The position numbers were made by a program, and so were the translations under genes. From Novipirellula galeiformis (lineage in GTDB: Bacteria > Planctomycetota > Planctomycetia > Pirellulales > Pirellulaceae), in contig NZ_SJPT01000003.1 of the NCBI RefSeq assembly GCF_007860095.1, positions 393,764-457,763 of the forward strand: DNA of 64,000 nt. The letters run 5' to 3'. Of the stretch, positions 41,796 to 54,927 are shown one piece after another (position 1 is the first letter of the stretch; each line of letters starts with the position of its first letter). The notes beneath the pieces were generated by a model. That model saw nothing but the letters and a program-made list of their open reading frames with translations, made no database searches and was not told where the DNA came from.

Positions 41796-41868
41796 GGCCC
41801 CTTCGTCTAGCGGTCCAGGACACCGCCCTTTCACGGCGGTAACACGGGTTCGAGTCCCGTAGGGGTCA
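41796..41868 (+). tRNA. tRNA-Glu (anticodon TTC)
   Basis: 73-nt cloverleaf. The acceptor stem GGCCCCT pairs with AGGGGTC, and the anticodon stem CCGCC / GGCGG encloses CTTTCAC with anticodon TTC at 41830-41832. The T arm ACGGGTTCGAGTCCCGT is intact. No CCA is encoded; the discriminator base is A. An intrinsic terminator follows directly. Confidence 0.97.
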
Positions 41869-42154: not shown

Positions 42155-42225
42155 TACCCCGTGGTGTAATGGTAACACTACTGATTTTGGTTCAGTCATT
42201 CAAGGTTCGAGTCCTTGCGGGGTAG
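42155..42225 (+). tRNA. tRNA-Gln (anticodon TTG)
   Basis: 71-nt cloverleaf. The acceptor stem TACCCCG pairs with CGGGGTA, discriminator G. The anticodon stem ACTGA / TCAGT encloses TTTTGGT with anticodon TTG at 42187-42189, and the T arm CAAGGTTCGAGTCCTTG is intact. No CCA is encoded. Confidence 0.96.
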
Positions 42226-42467: not shown

Positions 42468-42504
42468 TGGGCCCTTGAAGAACCTTCCAAATACGGATTT
42501 CGAT

Positions 42505-43926
42505 ATGTCAGCGGAAACGGCAAATTCATCCACGAACGCTCGCGTCGTGCAGTCACACATGCACCTGCTGCCTGTTTCAACGCGGGTACCGCTTAAGTTT
42601 GGAGCCGAGACGCTGACGAGCGTGCTGTGCCTGCGTGTTCGCATTTCGGTCGTAGACGGTCAAGGACGCCAGGCTGACGGTTGGGGCGAAACCCCGCTAT
42701 CGGTCCAGTGGGCGTGGCCTAGCTCGCTTGGCTACGACGCCCGGTTGCAGTCGATGATTGCGTTTGCACGCCGTTGCTCGGACGCTTGGTCCAACTCGAC
42801 CGCTAGCGGACATCCGATGGAACTCGGATACGACTTTATCCGCACCCGTTTGCCTGAGCTGATTGAGCAACACAACGCTGGGACGGATGCCCCAAACGAA
42901 GCGTTGCCATTGCTTGCCGCCTTGATTTGCGCCAGCGCATTTGATGTCGCACTGCACGACGCCTACGGCAACTTGCACCAAGTCGACATCTACGAAACCT
43001 ATAACCGCCAATGGATGAATCACGACTTGAGTCATTTCCTGTCGCCGGCGGACGACAGCACGGTTTCTTTCGCAGGAATGTATCCGCAAGATTTCTTTGT
43101 CGCCGATCCACCCAAACAGCTCGATGCGTGGCACCTCGTGGGCGGCTTAGACCCACTCGAAGAACACGAATTGACCGGCGATGAGCCGGCTGATGGGGTC
43201 CCCTTGTTTCTCGGCGACTGGATTCGCCGGGACGGGCTCAAACGGTTGAAGATCAAATTGCGTGGCAATGATTCCGCCTGGGACTACGAGCGAATGGTGC
43301 GCGTCGGCGAAATTGCACTCGCCAATGGAGTGCAGTCCACCACCGCCGATTTCAACTGCATGGTGCAAGATCCTGAATACGTCAACGAGATTCTCGATCG
43401 GCTCGAGCGAGAGCATCCTGCGATTAGCGATCTGTTGCTGTATGTCGAGCAACCGTTCCCCTACGACTTAGAAACCAATCGCATCGACGTCCATTCGGTC
43501 TCGAAGCGGAAGCCATTGTTTCTCGACGAAAGTGCTCACGATTGGCAACATGTCCGTCTCGGACGTGAACTCGGTTGGACCGGGGTGGCATTGAAGACAT
43601 GCAAAACGCAAACCGGTGCGTTGCTGAGCCATTGCTGGGCAAAAGCTCATGGGATGGGCATCATGGTCCAGGATTTGACCAATCCAATGCTGGCGCAAAT
43701 CCCACATGTAAGACTGGCTGCCCAAGTCGGCACGATCGGAGGGGTCGAAACCAATGCGATGCAGTTCTACCCCGCCGCCTCGGATGCTGAAGCCAAGGTC
43801 CACCCTGGGCTCTATCGTCGCCGCGACGGAAAGCTAGATCTGTCGACGATCTCCGGCCCTGGTTTTGGGTATCGCGTCGACGAAATTGAGCGAACGCTCC
43901 CCGCCGAGGGTGATGCCCAAGCGTGA
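42505..43926 (+). CDS. Enolase-superfamily (mandelate racemase / muconate lactonizing type) enzyme
   Basis: 473 aa. The C-terminal barrel has the superfamily residues: the LKIKLRG Lys-x-Lys base (about residue 250), metal ligands in TTADFN (about 283) and YVEQPFP (about 325), a DES segment (about 350), and a second base region ALKTCKTQ (about 373). Such enzymes abstract a proton alpha to a carboxylate and use a divalent metal; substrates vary widely (sugar acids, amino-acid derivatives, lactones). The N-terminal capping domain is present (ADGWGETPLSVQWAWP). The substrate cannot be named. The start is ATG 42505 with a weak GGA upstream; a TTG at 42475 is an alternative. Confidence 0.85.
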   Translation: MSAETANSSTNARVVQSHMHLLPVSTRVPLKFGAETLTSVLCLRVRISVVDGQGRQADGWGETPLSVQWAWPSSLGYDARLQSMIAFARRCSDAWSNSTASGHPMELGYDFIRTRLPELIEQHNAGTDAPNEALPLLAALICASAFDVALHDAYGNLHQVDIYETYNRQWMNHDLSHFLSPADDSTVSFAGMYPQDFFVADPPKQLDAWHLVGGLDPLEEHELTGDEPADGVPLFLGDWIRRDGLKRLKIKLRGNDSAWDYERMVRVGEIALANGVQSTTADFNCMVQDPEYVNEILDRLEREHPAISDLLLYVEQPFPYDLETNRIDVHSVSKRKPLFLDESAHDWQHVRLGRELGWTGVALKTCKTQTGALLSHCWAKAHGMGIMVQDLTNPMLAQIPHVRLAAQVGTIGGVETNAMQFYPAASDAEAKVHPGLYRRRDGKLDLSTISGPGFGYRVDEIERTLPAEGDAQA

Positions 43927-44156: not shown

Positions 44157-44478
44157 AACGGCTGCCGCGATCATCGCTGCCCAACCAGACGCCCGCTTCA
44201 ATCACCCCGCCGGTAAGCGAGGGGGGGGGGCATCGACCTTGGCTCGGCCCCTCGTCGATGCGTCGGGTTATGATTTCCGGGAAACGCGGACCGTTTCAAG
44301 CAAACTCGGCATGCTGGGTGCGTGCACTTATCGGTTTGCGCCGTTCGCGTGGATCCTGTCTTTCCCCGTGATCCCGCCGATCTCCTCTTGGCTCGGTATC
44401 TTCATTCCGACTAGTATCGGCGGTGTCTCTCTCCCTGTTCTGTTTGAACGGCCTCGAAGTACCAAGGAAGGTCTCGAC

Positions 44479-45552
44479 GTGTCCGCTGCCGAAAAACTGC
44501 CGAATTCCCTCGGTTCGAACGAAAATAGCTCTGCGCCGCCTGCGACCTTGATCGAACGGCTCCGTGTTTTGCGTGAAATCGTGTCGATCGAGGGCAATGC
44601 GATCCTACGGGCGGCCCAGACGCTGGGCGTTGAAGCAGTGCGCGCAGCTGAAATGACAGCAAACTGTGAAGGTTGCGTGGTCGTGACGGGAGTCGGCAAA
44701 GCAGGGCTGGTGGGCAAAAAATTAGTCGCAACGCTTGCTAGCACTGGCACCCCGGCTCATTTCCTGCATCCTGCCGAAGCGGTCCATGGCGATCTGGGGC
44801 GTGTTCGCAGCAGCGATGTCGTATGGGCGATCTCCAACTCGGGTCGCAGCGAAGAGGTCGTGCGGATTGCCGCTCACCTACGCGAACATTCTGCGGGCTT
44901 GATCGCGATCACGGCTTCAAACGACAATCCGCTCTCCGCCGCGGCGAACTGTACCGTCGCCATTGGCAAGCACAACGAAGCATGTCCCAACGGTTTGGCT
45001 CCGACGTCGAGTACCGCAGTCATGATGGCGGTAGGGGATGGGATCGCGATGTTGGCCAGTCGTTTGCGATCGTTCACTCCCCAAGATTTTGCCAAATATC
45101 ATCCTGGCGGCGCGCTGGGTCGCAAATTAGCCAGCGTTGATCAAATCATGCGTGGCCTCGATGCCTGTCGCATCGCGCCGAGTGACATCACCGTTCGTGA
45201 AGCGATGGTGAGTGCGTCGAAGAACGGACGGCGTACCGGGGCGGTGATGCTGGTTAACGCATCCAAACAACTTGTCGGAATCTTTACCGACAGCGACCTG
45301 GCAAGAATCTTGGAAACGCGAAACGATGTCGCGTTGGACGAGAGCATTGCGAATCGCATGACCGCGAACCCCACGACTGCGACCAGCGGAATGTTGTTAC
45401 AAGATGCATTGGCGGTGATGTCCCGCCGACGGATCAGTGAGCTTCCCGTGCTCGATTCCCAAAATCGCCCGATCGGATTGATCGACATCACCGATATCGC
45501 TGGTCTGCTCGGCGATCAAGATGACCCCGCCATTTTAAGTTTCCAACCCTAA
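44479..45552 (+). CDS. kdsD: D-arabinose 5-phosphate isomerase (KdsD/KpsF family)
   Basis: Interconverts ribulose 5-phosphate and arabinose 5-phosphate, the first committed step to Kdo for lipopolysaccharide. 357 aa: an SIS domain (about residues 45-200) with VVTGVGKAGLVGKKL near 68-82, STGTPAHFLHPAEAVHGDLG near 90-110 and NGLAPTSSTAVMM near 171, then two CBS domains (about 220-350). The family's His/Thr active-site region is intact. GTG start with AAGGAAGG 7-8 bases upstream. kdsC follows 9 bp after the stop. The order kdsD-kdsC-[Lpt-like] matches enterobacteria. Confidence 0.93.
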   Translation: MSAAEKLPNSLGSNENSSAPPATLIERLRVLREIVSIEGNAILRAAQTLGVEAVRAAEMTANCEGCVVVTGVGKAGLVGKKLVATLASTGTPAHFLHPAEAVHGDLGRVRSSDVVWAISNSGRSEEVVRIAAHLREHSAGLIAITASNDNPLSAAANCTVAIGKHNEACPNGLAPTSSTAVMMAVGDGIAMLASRLRSFTPQDFAKYHPGGALGRKLASVDQIMRGLDACRIAPSDITVREAMVSASKNGRRTGAVMLVNASKQLVGIFTDSDLARILETRNDVALDESIANRMTANPTTATSGMLLQDALAVMSRRRISELPVLDSQNRPIGLIDITDIAGLLGDQDDPAILSFQP

Positions 45553-45561
45553 CGCGAATTC

Positions 45562-46086
45562 ATGCCCACGAAGCTTTCTACCGACGCATCCATTGCCGAA
45601 CCGATCACGTGCATTCTTTCCGACGTGGACGGAGTGATGACCGATGGGCGGATCATCTATGACGATCACGGCATCGAGACCAAACGCTTTCATGTTCGCG
45701 ATGGCTTAGGCATCAAGTTGTGGATGCGTTCGGGGTTTTCATTTGCGATTCTCTCCGCGCGGCAAGGCAACGCGGTCAAGCAACGGGCGTTGGAGCTTGG
45801 CATTGAACAAGTGGCGCAAGGTTTCGAAGACAAATGGCCCGCGGCCGAAGCGTTGTTTGAAACGCTCGGCTGTACGCCCGCACAAGTTTGCTACATCGGC
45901 GACGATTTGCCGGACATTGCCGTGATGACACGGGTTGCATTAGCCGTCGCGCCAGCCGATGCCGCCACCGATGCCCGCGACGCGGCCCACTGGGTCTTGC
46001 GAAAACAAGGTGGCGAGGGAGCCATCCGCGAGTTGATTGAACGATTGCTGCGAGCCAAGGGACGATGGCAGGAACATCTGGGTTGA
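45562..46086 (+). CDS. kdsC: 3-deoxy-D-manno-octulosonate 8-phosphate phosphatase (KdsC family)
   Basis: 174-aa HAD-type phosphatase without a cap domain, making Kdo from Kdo 8-phosphate. Motif I is DVDGVMTDG (about residues 20-28; nucleophile Asp and general acid Asp), motif II falls in ILSARQG, and motif IV is YIGDDLPDIAVM (about 112-124). FHVRDGLGIKLW is the typical KdsC segment after motif I. The tetramer-forming short fold is consistent with the length. 9 bp after kdsD and likely co-transcribed. Other KdsC-like phosphatases act on related sugar acids, but the pairing with kdsD favours Kdo synthesis. Confidence 0.93.
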   Translation: MPTKLSTDASIAEPITCILSDVDGVMTDGRIIYDDHGIETKRFHVRDGLGIKLWMRSGFSFAILSARQGNAVKQRALELGIEQVAQGFEDKWPAAEALFETLGCTPAQVCYIGDDLPDIAVMTRVALAVAPADAATDARDAAHWVLRKQGGEGAIRELIERLLRAKGRWQEHLG

Positions 46087-46211
46087 TGCTTCGCCTCCGC
46101 CTCCGAGCTGCCGAATCCCGCATTGGCAGCGTAGGAAGACTTTAATTGCCATGACCGACGACACCCAACGCAAGTGATTTCCCTTTCGAATCACGTCACT
46201 GCAACCAAACG

Positions 46212-49200
46212 ATGCTGCGAAAATCAATTCATTACATCACCGCCCTCGCCTTTCTAAGCGTGTTAGCCATGGTCTATCACGTGTTAGTGCTGGCGTGGCT
46301 GCGTCCTCCGGACGTCGAGCGTGTTGCCCTTGCGCCCGCTCGCGAGTTCAAGGTCGGCGATACGTTGGCGGATCTGTTCCCCGAAGGGGCATGGCAACGC
46401 GAAAAATGCAAACGACTGCAAACGGCCGACGGCATGTTGTTGTTCCAGAACTGGGAGCAAAGCAGTCCCGATCAATGGAAACTATGGCCGATGACCGTCG
46501 TGATCGGTCGCGGCGCACAAAATTCCAACAATGCATCTCCGGTCGTGATCGAGTCGAACGAGGGCGCGGAAATCAAGTTCACCGGGTCGCTCGATGTGAT
46601 GAGTGGCGGAGCCCCGCCGATCCAGCGGGGACGCATGATTGGCGTCGTGCAAATTAGCCGCCCCAATCCGACCACCCCAAGTCAATCGTTGTTCATCCGC
46701 ACCGCCAATGTGGGCATCGACAACCAAAAGATTTGGACGACCGAAACGATCCAAATGAATCTTGGCAAGGCCAAAATGGTCGGCCGCGACATGACGATCC
46801 ATCTGGCGACCAACACCTCGGCGCCGATGTCTCCGGGCGGAAAAACCGCGGTACTTGATCGGATGGAACTGATCTATTTGGAAGAGTTCCGCATGCCGCT
46901 CGAAAACGGAGGCCTTTGGCCCGCCGCAGGGCAAAGCTCCCCAACCGTGACCACGTCGCCTGCACCCGCACCCGCCCCCGAATCGATGCTGTCGAGCGTC
47001 CCAACCGCCCCATCGCTGCAGGGCGCCCCATCGCTGCAGGGTGACCATGCCGCCGAGGTTCAACTCCAATGCAATGGGCGCATGGAGTATGACTTTGCCA
47101 TCGACCAATTAATGCTTCGCGATTCGGTCTCGTTGATCCATCAAATCGCCGGTGCGAAAACCGACCGTTTTGATTGTGACACGATTGAGCTGACGTTTCG
47201 TGACCCCAGCAACAAATCGATCCCGCGCGAAAACGCCCTCGATTGGCTGCATCGCATCAAGGCGACCGGCGCGCCGTTGGCGGCACGACTGCCAAACTTG
47301 GACCTGGAAATATTCGCGGGCCAAATCGACATGCAAGCCACCAAGGGGCTCGTGCGCGCCGATGGCATCCAAGGCATCGAAGTGCACCGCGGCGGCATTC
47401 ACGCGCGACTCGAAAGCATCGTTTACCAATACGATCCCGCGTCGCCGGACAAGCTCGGTGCGATTGATGCTCGCGGTATCGGCATTGTTACCATGGACGA
47501 TCCCAATTTGCCGATCCGGCGCGCTCAGTGGAGTGAAGGATTCAAGCTGCAACCCCTTGGTCCGATGACCAAAGATTCGTTCGCCAGCGAGGTTGGTTTT
47601 TGGATCGATGGCAATGTCAAAACCACGTTGGTCGATGGCGGTGAATTCCAAGCCGATACCGTCGAGGGTGTTTTGAAACCCGATCCACGCCAAGATCCCT
47701 CGCAACCGAGCCAAAAACTGATTCCCGATCGCGTGGCGGCCCTAGGCGATGTCCATCTCGACACGGCCACACTGCAAGCAGACACCGATCAATTGCGATT
47801 GTTTTTTGTTGATCCTGATCCGTCTTCGATGGCGATGATCGAAGGCAATCATGACGAAGAAAAAGGCTCGATCCGCCAATTGGTCAAACAGCCCGAATCG
47901 GGAACGTCGACGGTCCCCGTTGCCGTTGCCCGCTCGCGTCCCACGGTCCAAGGGCACGCCATCACCGCAAAACTACTGCTCAGCGATGCCGGCGTGCATG
48001 CCCAGGACCTGAGTGTCGTGGGCGCGGTGAAACTCACCCATACCGTTCAATTGGGCGGACAACCGATGCAGGCAAAATTGACCGGCGAACAACTGCGTTT
48101 GATCGATGGCGGAGGCGAAGACGTGCTACAGCTCGGGAGTGGCGTCGATTCCCCGGCTCGCTTTGAACTTGGCGACGGCTACTTCGTCGGCCCGCTAATC
48201 CAAATTCGACCCAGCGATAATATTATTTGGATCAATGAAGCGGGAGAGTTTCGCATTCCATCGCAAGCGCTGCCGAGCAGCTTGGCCAACGCAACCGCAG
48301 GTAGCGGCAGCGAAGATAATGGTGTTTTGACGAACCGGTCCAGCACCACAAACAATGACACAGCAACCAAGCTCACTTGGACAAAGCCTCCGCTGTGTCG
48401 TTGGCAAGGTGAAATGGTCTTTGATGGAAAAACAGCCACGTTAACCGACGGCGTCGAAATTGACGCATCGCTCGTCAACGGCACCGAACCTTGGGATGTG
48501 CATGTTGCAGCGGACCGCATGGAGATTCTGTTGCACGATGGAGTCCAGGTTCGCGATCTGAAGACAATGAAAACAGCCACCGTGCAACGCATCGATTTAC
48601 TTCAAACGGAGTCGCGTCCGCTGATGATCCAAGCGGTCCAGCGTGCCGGAGACGGGCTGACCGAATCAAAACATGTGCTTCATGCCGAAAAACTAACACT
48701 CGTTCCTGCCGATGGCGGCAAGGTTTACGGAGCGGGTCCCGGTTGGTATCGATGCTGGTCGCGTGGCGAAGCGGGAAATTTGAAATTGGGCAGCGCGGCC
48801 AATGCCGACGTGGACCGCAGCAAATTGACCGGAATCCATCTCATTTTTCATGACACGATGCAGGGTGACCTGTTGCATAAGACGCTCGATTTCATGCGAG
48901 GAGTCCGCGTCGGCGTTCGTGACGTGGCCAGCTGGGACGATGTCTTTGATGCCCAATCGATGGACGCCTTGTCGGCGGGACAAACGACGCTTGATTGTGA
49001 CCACCTGCGGTTCGGCATTTCCCCCGAGGCGATCCACCTGCCCTCGATTGCAGGACTTGGCACGCCCTGGGAGACCGAAGCCTCCGGAGGGGTCGTCTTC
49101 CGCACGCGCAATGAGCGTGGGCTGTTGGAGTGCAGTGCCACGCGGGCCGCCTACTCTGCGGCCAAGGATCAGTTCACAATGCACGGTGCCCCGAATCGCC

Positions 49201-49355
49201 CGGCCCTGTTTCGCCAACAACTACCCGACGGGCAAGCCGGCCCCGAAGGGGCCGTCAAGACGATGACCTTGAAGCTAAAGACCATGGAAGTCGAGAATCT
49301 TCAATTGGAACGACTCAACATCGCAGCGCCTCCGGGGGCGGTCCGCCCCCAATAA
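46212..49355 (+). CDS. Giant LptC/LptA-like protein, single N-terminal anchor
   Basis: 1047 aa. One N-terminal membrane segment (YITALAFLSVLAMVYHVLVL, about residues 8-28) is followed by about 1000 extracytoplasmic residues built of repeating beta strands with alternating hydrophobics. OstA/LptA-like cadences are seen: ELTFRDP, AKLTGEQLRLIDGGGEDVLQ (about 618-638), IQIRPSDNIIWINEAGEF, WQGEMVFDGKTATLTDGVEI, WDVHVAADRMEILLHDGVQV and a last ECSATRAAYSAAKDQFTMHG unit. A Pro-rich hinge (APAPAPES; PSLQGA twice) is near residues 255-277. It lies 125 bp after kdsC, in the place held by lptC and lptA in enterobacteria. The proposed role, inferred from position and shape, is the periplasmic bridge for lipopolysaccharide. 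No lptB follows. Confidence 0.6.
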   Translation: MLRKSIHYITALAFLSVLAMVYHVLVLAWLRPPDVERVALAPAREFKVGDTLADLFPEGAWQREKCKRLQTADGMLLFQNWEQSSPDQWKLWPMTVVIGRGAQNSNNASPVVIESNEGAEIKFTGSLDVMSGGAPPIQRGRMIGVVQISRPNPTTPSQSLFIRTANVGIDNQKIWTTETIQMNLGKAKMVGRDMTIHLATNTSAPMSPGGKTAVLDRMELIYLEEFRMPLENGGLWPAAGQSSPTVTTSPAPAPAPESMLSSVPTAPSLQGAPSLQGDHAAEVQLQCNGRMEYDFAIDQLMLRDSVSLIHQIAGAKTDRFDCDTIELTFRDPSNKSIPRENALDWLHRIKATGAPLAARLPNLDLEIFAGQIDMQATKGLVRADGIQGIEVHRGGIHARLESIVYQYDPASPDKLGAIDARGIGIVTMDDPNLPIRRAQWSEGFKLQPLGPMTKDSFASEVGFWIDGNVKTTLVDGGEFQADTVEGVLKPDPRQDPSQPSQKLIPDRVAALGDVHLDTATLQADTDQLRLFFVDPDPSSMAMIEGNHDEEKGSIRQLVKQPESGTSTVPVAVARSRPTVQGHAITAKLLLSDAGVHAQDLSVVGAVKLTHTVQLGGQPMQAKLTGEQLRLIDGGGEDVLQLGSGVDSPARFELGDGYFVGPLIQIRPSDNIIWINEAGEFRIPSQALPSSLANATAGSGSEDNGVLTNRSSTTNNDTATKLTWTKPPLCRWQGEMVFDGKTATLTDGVEIDASLVNGTEPWDVHVAADRMEILLHDGVQVRDLKTMKTATVQRIDLLQTESRPLMIQAVQRAGDGLTESKHVLHAEKLTLVPADGGKVYGAGPGWYRCWSRGEAGNLKLGSAANADVDRSKLTGIHLIFHDTMQGDLLHKTLDFMRGVRVGVRDVASWDDVFDAQSMDALSAGQTTLDCDHLRFGISPEAIHLPSIAGLGTPWETEASGGVVFRTRNERGLLECSATRAAYSAAKDQFTMHGAPNRPALFRQQLPDGQAGPEGAVKTMTLKLKTMEVENLQLERLNIAAPPGAVRPQ

Positions 49356-52658: not shown

Positions 52659-52740
52659 GCAACCGCATCCTGAGCCGCTATACTGACTCGACACGCCGTC
52701 CGCTGGGTCCGACGGCTATCGAATGTACGTGGCCAATTGC

Positions 52741-53511
<771 letters not shown>

Positions 53512-53541: not shown

Positions 53542-54927
53542 ATGAAAACTCTTCCCATCGTCGATCACCCGACCAAAGCTCATGCGTTCGTTGCCGACAA
53601 CGAACGGACGCATTGGCACGACCAAGCGTTGTGGTTCGTCCGCAGTAAACGGGACAAACAAGCGGGGTCGGTCCCGGAATGGGAATACCTCCGCTCGCTC
53701 GCGTCGCAGATCAAAACCGAAACGATCGCGAAGCTCGGTGACTATCTGAGCGAATTCGAACGCAACGCCACCGCGCTCGGCGCGACCGTGCACTGGGCCG
53801 CAGATGCCGCCGAGCACAATGAAATTGTACTCAAGATTTTGCGTGATCACGAAACCCTACGGATCGTTAAAAGCAAATCAATGCTGACGGAGGAATGTGG
53901 ACTCAATCACTTTCTCGAAGACAATGGCATCGAAGTCGTCGACACCGACTTGGGCGAGCGCATCGTTCAACTGAGAAAAGAAACGCCCAGCCATATTGTG
54001 TTGCCTGCGATCCATATTCGCAAAGAAGAAGTCGGCGAGACGTTTCACGAGCACCTTGGTACCGACGAAGGGGCATCCGATCCACAATACTTGACCGAAG
54101 CCGCACGGGGTCATTTGCGTGACAAGTTCTTGGCAGGCGAAGTCGGGATCACGGGAGTCAACTTTGCGATCGCGGAAACCGGCGGATTCGTCATTTGCAC
54201 CAACGAAGGCAATGCTGATCTTGGCGTATCGCTGCCGCGAGTCCATATCGCTTGTATGGGCATCGAAAAAATCATCCCACGCTTCGAGGACTTAGCGGTC
54301 TTCATTCGCTTGCTCGCTCGCAGTGCGACCGGACAACCGATCACCACGTACACCTCGCACTTCCATGGCCCTCGCGACCCGCAGAGCGAATTGCACATTG
54401 TGTTGGTCGATAACGGCCGCAGCCAACTGAGAAACCGCAGCGAATTTCGCGACGCATTGCACTGTATCCGCTGTGGCGCGTGCATGAATACATGCCCCGT
54501 TTATCGGCGCAGTGGCGGGCATAGTTACAGCGCCACGGTGCCCGGTCCGATCGGATCGGTGTTGTCGCCGACTCGCGATTCTTCGAGCTACAAGAGCCTT
54601 CCCTACGCCTGCAGTTTATGCGGTTCGTGCACCGACGTTTGCCCCGTCAAAATCCCGCTGCATCACCAATTACTAGCTTGGCGAAAAGAGCTGGTCGATC
54701 AGAATTTATTGCCCTATTCGAAACGAATCAGCATGAAAGGGGCGTCGATCCTGTTTCGCAATCCGCGACTGTTCACCTTTGCCGGTTGGGTGGGACGCAA
54801 ATCACTGAAGTGGCTGCCGCACGGGATGACCCACAACCGCTGGAACACTTGGACGATTGCTCGAGAACTCCCCGAACCTCCTCGCGAGAGTTTCCGTCAT
54901 TGGTATGCCGCGAACCGAAAACGATAA
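53542..54927 (+). CDS. lutB: Lactate utilisation iron-sulfur protein (LutB type)
   Basis: 461 aa. An N-terminal LUD domain (about residues 60-295; HETLRIVKSKSMLTEECGLN near 110, GITGVNFAIAETGGFVICTN near 205-222) precedes two 4Fe-4S ferredoxin motifs: CIRCGACMNTCPVY near 308-321 and CSLCGSCTDVCPVK near 356-369. It then continues with the typical C-terminal LutB segment (LAWRKELVDQNLLPYSKRIS). Together with LutA and LutC it oxidises L-lactate to pyruvate. The stop at 54927 is 2 bp from the lutC start, so translation is coupled. Confidence 0.95.
   Translation: MKTLPIVDHPTKAHAFVADNERTHWHDQALWFVRSKRDKQAGSVPEWEYLRSLASQIKTETIAKLGDYLSEFERNATALGATVHWAADAAEHNEIVLKILRDHETLRIVKSKSMLTEECGLNHFLEDNGIEVVDTDLGERIVQLRKETPSHIVLPAIHIRKEEVGETFHEHLGTDEGASDPQYLTEAARGHLRDKFLAGEVGITGVNFAIAETGGFVICTNEGNADLGVSLPRVHIACMGIEKIIPRFEDLAVFIRLLARSATGQPITTYTSHFHGPRDPQSELHIVLVDNGRSQLRNRSEFRDALHCIRCGACMNTCPVYRRSGGHSYSATVPGPIGSVLSPTRDSSSYKSLPYACSLCGSCTDVCPVKIPLHHQLLAWRKELVDQNLLPYSKRISMKGASILFRNPRLFTFAGWVGRKSLKWLPHGMTHNRWNTWTIARELPEPPRESFRHWYAANRKR

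Follow-up and report, generated by a model that had tools for sequence, protein, structure and literature searches.

A probable LptC-LptA fusion encoded next to kdsC in Novipirellula galeiformis and related Planctomycetota

We describe a gene that appears to encode, in one piece, most of a bridge for the export of lipopolysaccharide (LPS). It was found in a stretch of 64,000 nucleotides (the window) from the planctomycete Novipirellula galeiformis (contig NZ_SJPT01000003.1, positions 393,764 to 457,763 of the forward strand). Here kdsD, kdsC and a gene for a protein of 1047 amino acids (P0001) follow each other on the + strand, within window positions 44479-49355. We are confident that P0001 joins LptC to a number of beta-jelly rolls of the LptA type, and it probably forms the Lpt bridge. 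The protein holds domains of both types and very probably works like LptC and LptA, and the bridge that carries LPS to the outer membrane may therefore be largely a single chain in this organism. The basis for this is the domain order, homology, fold prediction and gene order, together with the lptB gene, a pair of lptF/G genes and a candidate for LptD found in the genome. From these we infer the membrane topology, the LPS cargo, the docking onto LptF and LptD, and a bridge that uses no separate LptA.

Sequence and fold relationships of P0001

The gene and the domains that we assign to its product are as follows (window coordinates).

46212-49355, +: probable fused LptC-(LptA)n gene, 1047 amino acids (open reading frame, profile, HMM-HMM comparison, predicted structure)
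46215-46301, +: predicted N-terminal membrane anchor helix, residues 2-30 (AlphaFold2 helix in both models)
46389-46916, +: LptC-type jelly roll, about residues 60-235, 10 strands (hhalign to LptC; top five Foldseek chains all LptC)
47043-47810, +: first LptA-type array, residues 278-533, 15 strands, one to two units (hhalign to LptA)
47913-48254, +: LptA-type unit, residues 568-681, 9 strands (hhalign to LptA, full run 54.8, segment run 89.1)
48372-48764, +: LptA-type unit, residues 721-851, 12 strands (hhalign to LptA, 16.6 and 84.2)
48825-49319, +: last LptA-type unit, residues 872-1036, 10 strands (hhalign to LptA, 92.9 and 96.8)

The strongest sequence evidence comes from the family to which P0001 belongs. 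When a profile of 51 homologues was searched against the PDB (177,635 sequences), all seven matches up to E=10 were LptA, the best at E 0.013. Local LptC and LptA profile hidden Markov models (HMMs) were built from 31 proteobacterial-type kdsC-lptC-lptA loci. These remained from 38 loci that matched both proteins, after the exclusion of six in which one open reading frame was the best match for both and of L113, which was removed by hand. Two analyses (A5 and A6) used 20 of the 31 loci, and A1 was run without L067. The lptC/lptA pair of one of the 31, L110, was confirmed with Pfam.

In HMM-HMM comparisons with hhalign, residues 85-202, approximately, match LptC with a probability of 94-96 (E 1.5e-7 to 5.7e-9). 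The LptC and LptA profiles are themselves related (HMM-HMM probability 96.5), so it is the contrast at the N-terminal domain of the family, 95.9 for LptC against only 4.8% for LptA, that separates the two. Later segments match LptA, with probabilities of 97.8 and 96.8, and reversed controls reached 8.4 at most. A second comparison agrees, with 95.2 for LptC and 96.3 for LptA. Within the first array, residues 278-423 match LptA with a probability of 96.8 (E 2.9e-10) and residues 361-498 with 78.7. The match is also strong over residues 881-1038 and weaker over 568-679 and 724-810. The weakest unit, residues 721-851, resembles the family's own first array (probability 97.7, E 1.3e-12). Overlapping segment pairs are trivial in such an internal-repeat test and were not counted.

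Single members of the family tell a similar story. The LptA HMM recognizes 49 of 52 members at E<0.01 (one of 52 when reversed) and the LptC HMM 39 of 52 (none when reversed), P0001 being among the misses in both cases. Of 72 LptA domains with an independent E-value below 0.01, 28 have their centres at residues 350-400, 30 at residues 950-1000 and 6 near residue 600, while 10 of the 14 confident LptC domains lie near residue 150. In the opposite direction, the family HMM matched seven of the 31 lptA open reading frames at E<=10, with L110 best at 4.7e-9; the other 24 were not listed. Pfam was applied to five long relatives that follow kdsC. The LptC family scored above its cut-off in L156 and L132, and the LptA family did so in L123 and, by 0.1 bit, in L132; L112 stayed below the cut-offs and L136 had no LptC or LptA match in Pfam.

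The predicted structure agrees with this picture. An AlphaFold2 model of the whole chain, made with 18 sequences (mean pLDDT 76, pTM 0.58), consists of a helix at residues 2-30 and 56 beta-strands. A Foldseek search with this model ranked LptD first (E 8.4e-9, probability 1.00), and 15 of the 32 matches at E<=0.001 are LptD. LptA was matched with a probability of 1.00 at E 0.0019-0.0028, with a TM-score of 0.63-0.77 over LptA and a root-mean-square deviation (rmsd) of 3.1-4.7. Residues 1-240 modelled alone (pLDDT 82) returned LptC as the top five chains, from four entries and with a probability of 1.00, followed by LptH and LptA. The strands are amphipathic, scoring 1.81 against 1.24 +/- 0.15 in 1000 shuffles (maximum 1.74), a property that any beta-sandwich would show. 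An earlier note on this DNA had described one membrane helix followed by beta-strand units and had proposed homology with LptC and LptA. The former is borne out by the model, and the latter by the PDB profile search, the HMM-HMM comparisons with their reversed controls, the fold comparison and the gene order. The structure prediction and fold comparison that it called for returned LptC, LptA and LptD, and not the model lacking jelly rolls that it had named as evidence to the contrary.

Several observations weigh against our reading. P0001 alone matches no Pfam family, its assignment rests on its family, and with the local HMMs it reaches only E 0.14 (LptC) and 0.17 (LptA). The middle units, residues 568-681 and 721-851, are weakly supported when taken singly, and the remaining four of the 14 LptC domains lie near residue 600, away from the N terminus. 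The fold match of the N-terminal domain has a best E-value of 0.013, with none at or below 0.001, a TM-score of 0.36-0.39 over the query and an rmsd of 3.5-7.7 A (23 A in one case). Superpositions of the whole chain on LptD have an rmsd of 36-47 A, and this likeness is therefore local only. The other 17 of the 32 Foldseek matches are beta-rich proteins, e.g. teneurin, Rhs and DDB1, and teneurin is second by E-value, with a probability of 0.57. Finally, the LptD candidate described below has no Pfam match, no single-sequence phmmer match in the PDB and no direct match to LptD. NCBIfam models likewise revealed nothing of use for P0001 alone, and a 15.8-bit match to a DNA-repair endonuclease family, the cut-off of which is 150, was discarded.

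The 17 matches to teneurin and similar folds would also suit a beta-propeller or a surface protein of the YD/Rhs type. We consider this extremely improbable, since such proteins have probabilities of 0.08-0.57 among the 50 matches listed, against 0.82-1.00 for LptD and LptA, and neither Pfam nor the PDB profile search gives them any support from sequence. A second alternative is a lipid transfer protein of the AsmA/TamB kind, or another of bridge-like build, in which a single N-terminal helix precedes a long beta-groove and which is unrelated to Lpt. In general look such a protein would resemble P0001, a helix followed by a long beta-rich chain. The exclusively LptA matches in the PDB, the HMM matches to both LptC and LptA and the linkage to kdsC make it very unlikely. 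No AsmA or TamB family of Pfam matched P0001 (E<=10) or the five long relatives (E<=0.1), a negative that is weak for P0001, in which Pfam fails to recognize LptC and LptA as well.

Gene order, distribution and other Lpt genes

Two genes precede that of P0001 in the array.

44479-45552, +: kdsD/kpsF-type arabinose-5-phosphate isomerase with SIS and CBS domains (TIGR00393, Pfam SIS and CBS above cut-off)
45562-46086, +: kdsC, Kdo-8-phosphate phosphatase of the HAD type (TIGR01670, 149.1 bits, cut-off 106.95)

The longest reading of kdsD is 44239-45552, and 44479 is an in-frame GTG within it. TIGR00393, the KpsF/GutQ model, scores 262 bits against a cut-off of 204 and covers residues 145-415 of the long form. 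The P0001 frame begins with ATG, 125 bases past kdsC, and has no internal stop. The row of kdsD, kdsC and a gene for 1047 amino acids, as first noticed, is thus confirmed by the open reading frames and by both TIGR models.

This array is not a product of chance, because 56 of the 60 relatives sampled, with the genome itself counted among them, have a homologue of P0001. Loci from 52 of these 56 genomes were examined, G001, G010, G027 and G035 being left out. Members of the family have 956-1309 amino acids, with a median of 1044. In all but two of the 52 loci (50; L066 and L082 are the exceptions) KdsC is encoded just upstream and in the same direction, and in 42 loci KdsD is encoded upstream. 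The gap between kdsC and the long gene ranges from -149 to +524 bases and is negative in 11 loci, of which fewer may be true overlaps because starts were set at the first possible start codon. The KdsC and KdsD counts come from a separate search, as the clustering of neighbours missed some KdsC when it took open reading frames on the wrong strand. That clustering covered 51 of the 52 loci (L069 dropped out) and found no downstream cluster in more than 8 of the 51. The best named kdsC locus, L089 ('Planctomycetes bacterium K23_9'), has a KdsC that is 65% identical and a relative of the long protein with 1037 amino acids and 47% identity to P0001. Among 80 kdsC loci, the family HMM matches the long open reading frame strongly (E<1e-50) in 17. 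It does not match at the planctomycetote kdsC loci L103, L117, L131 and L151, although L103 matches the LptC and LptA HMMs and L151 the LptC HMM.

All 12 genomes of the class to which the window belongs matched the family profile, as did 26 of the other 187 planctomycetote genomes. With Pfam, LptC (PF06835) matches 52 of 199 planctomycetote genomes (43 above the cut-off), and of its 53 places 46 lie in open frames of 445-1227 amino acids and 7 in frames of 159-377. LptA (PF03968) matches 42 of the 199 genomes. By a hand count, both models match in 26 genomes and share one frame in 21 of these. Eight genomes of family f62 carry frames of 652-669 amino acids, in which between one and three Pfam LptA copies come after LptC. 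Among 20 chosen loci that bear matches, 15 combine LptC with one or more LptA in a single open reading frame, as judged by HMM, and KdsC is recognized beside the gene in 13. The clearest long array seen is at L240:3894-7121, where the gene after kdsC encodes 1075 amino acids in which the HMMs find LptC and five units of LptA. L239, L251 and L252 match the family profile, but not both HMMs. At L233, L234, L235, L236 and L242 an open reading frame of 594-672 amino acids lies directly after the fused gene, on the same strand.

A shorter arrangement is seen in the Omnitrophota. At L157:6479-7345 (288 amino acids) and L165:3020-4021 (333 amino acids) LptC and one LptA are fused, with both Pfam models above the cut-off. 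These genes lie downstream of kdsC, in L165 with a frame of 454 amino acids in between, and before a gene that is probably of the ABC type by its motifs. They are a possible short form of the fusion. The distribution as a whole suggests a series that begins with separate genes, passes through LptC-LptA and ends in LptC-(LptA)n.

The remaining parts of the system were sought in the genome itself (7.4 Mb, 30 contigs). There is one lptB gene, on contig C4 and apart from the array, with 327 bits against a cut-off of 240 (the next best hit has 158). Two genes exceed the cut-off of PF03739 (LptF/G). The LptD candidate has 1113 amino acids (L075:7489-10830, - strand, contig C16) and is conserved in all 40 genomes searched, including its own. 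In a PDB search with its profile, residues 46-94 ranked LptA first, weakly (E 0.08), and no LptD was matched. The main alignment begins only at residue 233-352 in 36 of the 40 genomes, so the N-terminal part of this protein is long and variable. The check proposed in the earlier note, a look for lptB, lptF/G and lptD in the genome, thus finds the first two, and for LptD a candidate only.

Separate canonical lptC and lptA genes, which the same note had named as grounds for rejecting a fusion, were not found in this genome with Pfam or the proteobacterial-type profiles. PF06835 and the local LptC profile have no match, and PF03968 and the LptA profile have weak matches only, both inside the LptD candidate. 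This negative carries full weight for canonical copies only, because the same models also fail on the fused gene here. A diverged second LptA could escape them, in which case P0001 would be an LptC with a long tail; alternatively, it could be a homologue with another glycolipid as its cargo. Some planctomycetotes do retain small separate genes: L250 (3810-4993) has LptC with 226 and LptA with 168 amino acids, and L249 (4507-5031) has LptC with 174 and no LptA recognized beside it. Furthermore, five of the 26 genomes in which both Pfam families match do not show them as distinct stretches of one frame; in G063, G077, G095 and G203 they are not in one frame, and in G120 both fall on the same stretch. 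We regard this alternative as unlikely, given that kdsC adjoins the gene in nearly all loci, that several LptA-type units are already present in the chain of P0001, and that other Lpt parts are present.

Other features of the window lie outside the array. Two tRNA genes are found at 41796-41868 and 42155-42225, both on the + strand and above the Rfam gathering score, and an enolase-superfamily protein (Pfam MR_MLE_C above cut-off) is encoded at 42475-43926. The frames at 52723-53511 and 53542-54927 may form a LutA/LutB-like pair for lactate utilization. A promoter scan gave 3 sites against 2.4 expected, no clearer than chance, and terminator-like sites numbered 13 against 7.7 +/- 2.9; neither was used as evidence.

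A proposed bridge in one chain and its known counterparts

If P0001 is the fused bridge that we propose, LptB2FG would extract LPS from the inner membrane, and the N-terminal helix would be placed with LptF/G. The first jelly roll would receive the acyl chains of lipid A, as LptC does. LPS would then be pushed from roll to roll through one hydrophobic groove within the same chain, and the last roll would dock edge-to-edge onto the jelly-roll N-domain of LptD.

A beta-strand adds about 0.48 nm, and 56 strands in two sheets thus give a predicted length of about 13 nm, which does not exceed the width of an ordinary periplasm. For this reason the suggestion that the long polypeptide spans a wide planctomycete periplasm is not supported. 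According to one study, this periplasm is enlarged in places, but the crateriform pits remain closely apposed to the cell membrane (PMC5394234). Such pits could be where a bridge of this kind works. It is conceivable, though we would not expect it, that the bridge acts as a ruler: one chain would be the whole periplasmic bridge, with its number of rolls fixed by the gene, and LPS would be exported only where the membranes are one bridge-length apart, e.g. at the pits, and not over the enlarged, invaginated periplasm.

In a survey from 2022, the text of which does not name the absent lpt genes, the Lpt system of planctomycetes is described as 'largely reduced' (PMC8871954). A survey from 2012 used LptD, BamA and TonB as markers, because other proteins were too poorly conserved for BLAST (PMC3422733). 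Among the open-licence PubMed Central matches listed, a set without preprints, there is no report of a planctomycete LptC-LptA fusion, which is weak evidence of absence. If our reading is correct, LptA and LptC of this lineage were not lost but fused, and are too diverged for the usual models. The relation of bridge length to periplasm width would become testable where, as the study of crateriform pits describes, that width varies (PMC5394234), as would the question of whether the number of LptA units matters.

In E. coli the LPS bridge to the outer membrane is assembled from separate proteins. As described in one paper, LPS moves there from LptB2FGC via the jelly rolls of LptC, LptA and LptD (PMC9972910). 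P0001 resembles LptC in its predicted N-terminal membrane helix followed by a jelly roll, and in the position of its gene right after kdsC. It differs in length, as LptC has 180-274 amino acids in the 31 proteobacterial-type loci and P0001 some 800 residues more. The likeness to LptA, at the level of the family profile and its members, lies in several jelly-roll units seen by HMM-HMM comparison, PDB profile and fold. LptA is a separate product of 162-249 amino acids in the same loci, whereas the units of P0001 stand in tandem and are tied to a predicted anchor. Because P0001 has neither the length of a stand-alone protein nor a score that reaches the Pfam gathering level for LptC (PF06835) or LptA (PF03968), we do not class it as either. 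The two Omnitrophota proteins are a further counterpart, with LptC and LptA in one open reading frame past kdsC, and differ in having one LptA unit only.

LetB and similar single-polypeptide tunnels are built from MCE domains, with a fold unrelated to Lpt. The likeness to the proposed bridge is that in LetB, too, one polypeptide forms a lipid conduit across the envelope, and a paper on E. coli Lpt contrasts Lpt with the LetAB tunnel on this point (PMC8727689). If P0001 is the fused bridge, Lpt in this lineage would itself belong with the single-chain systems.

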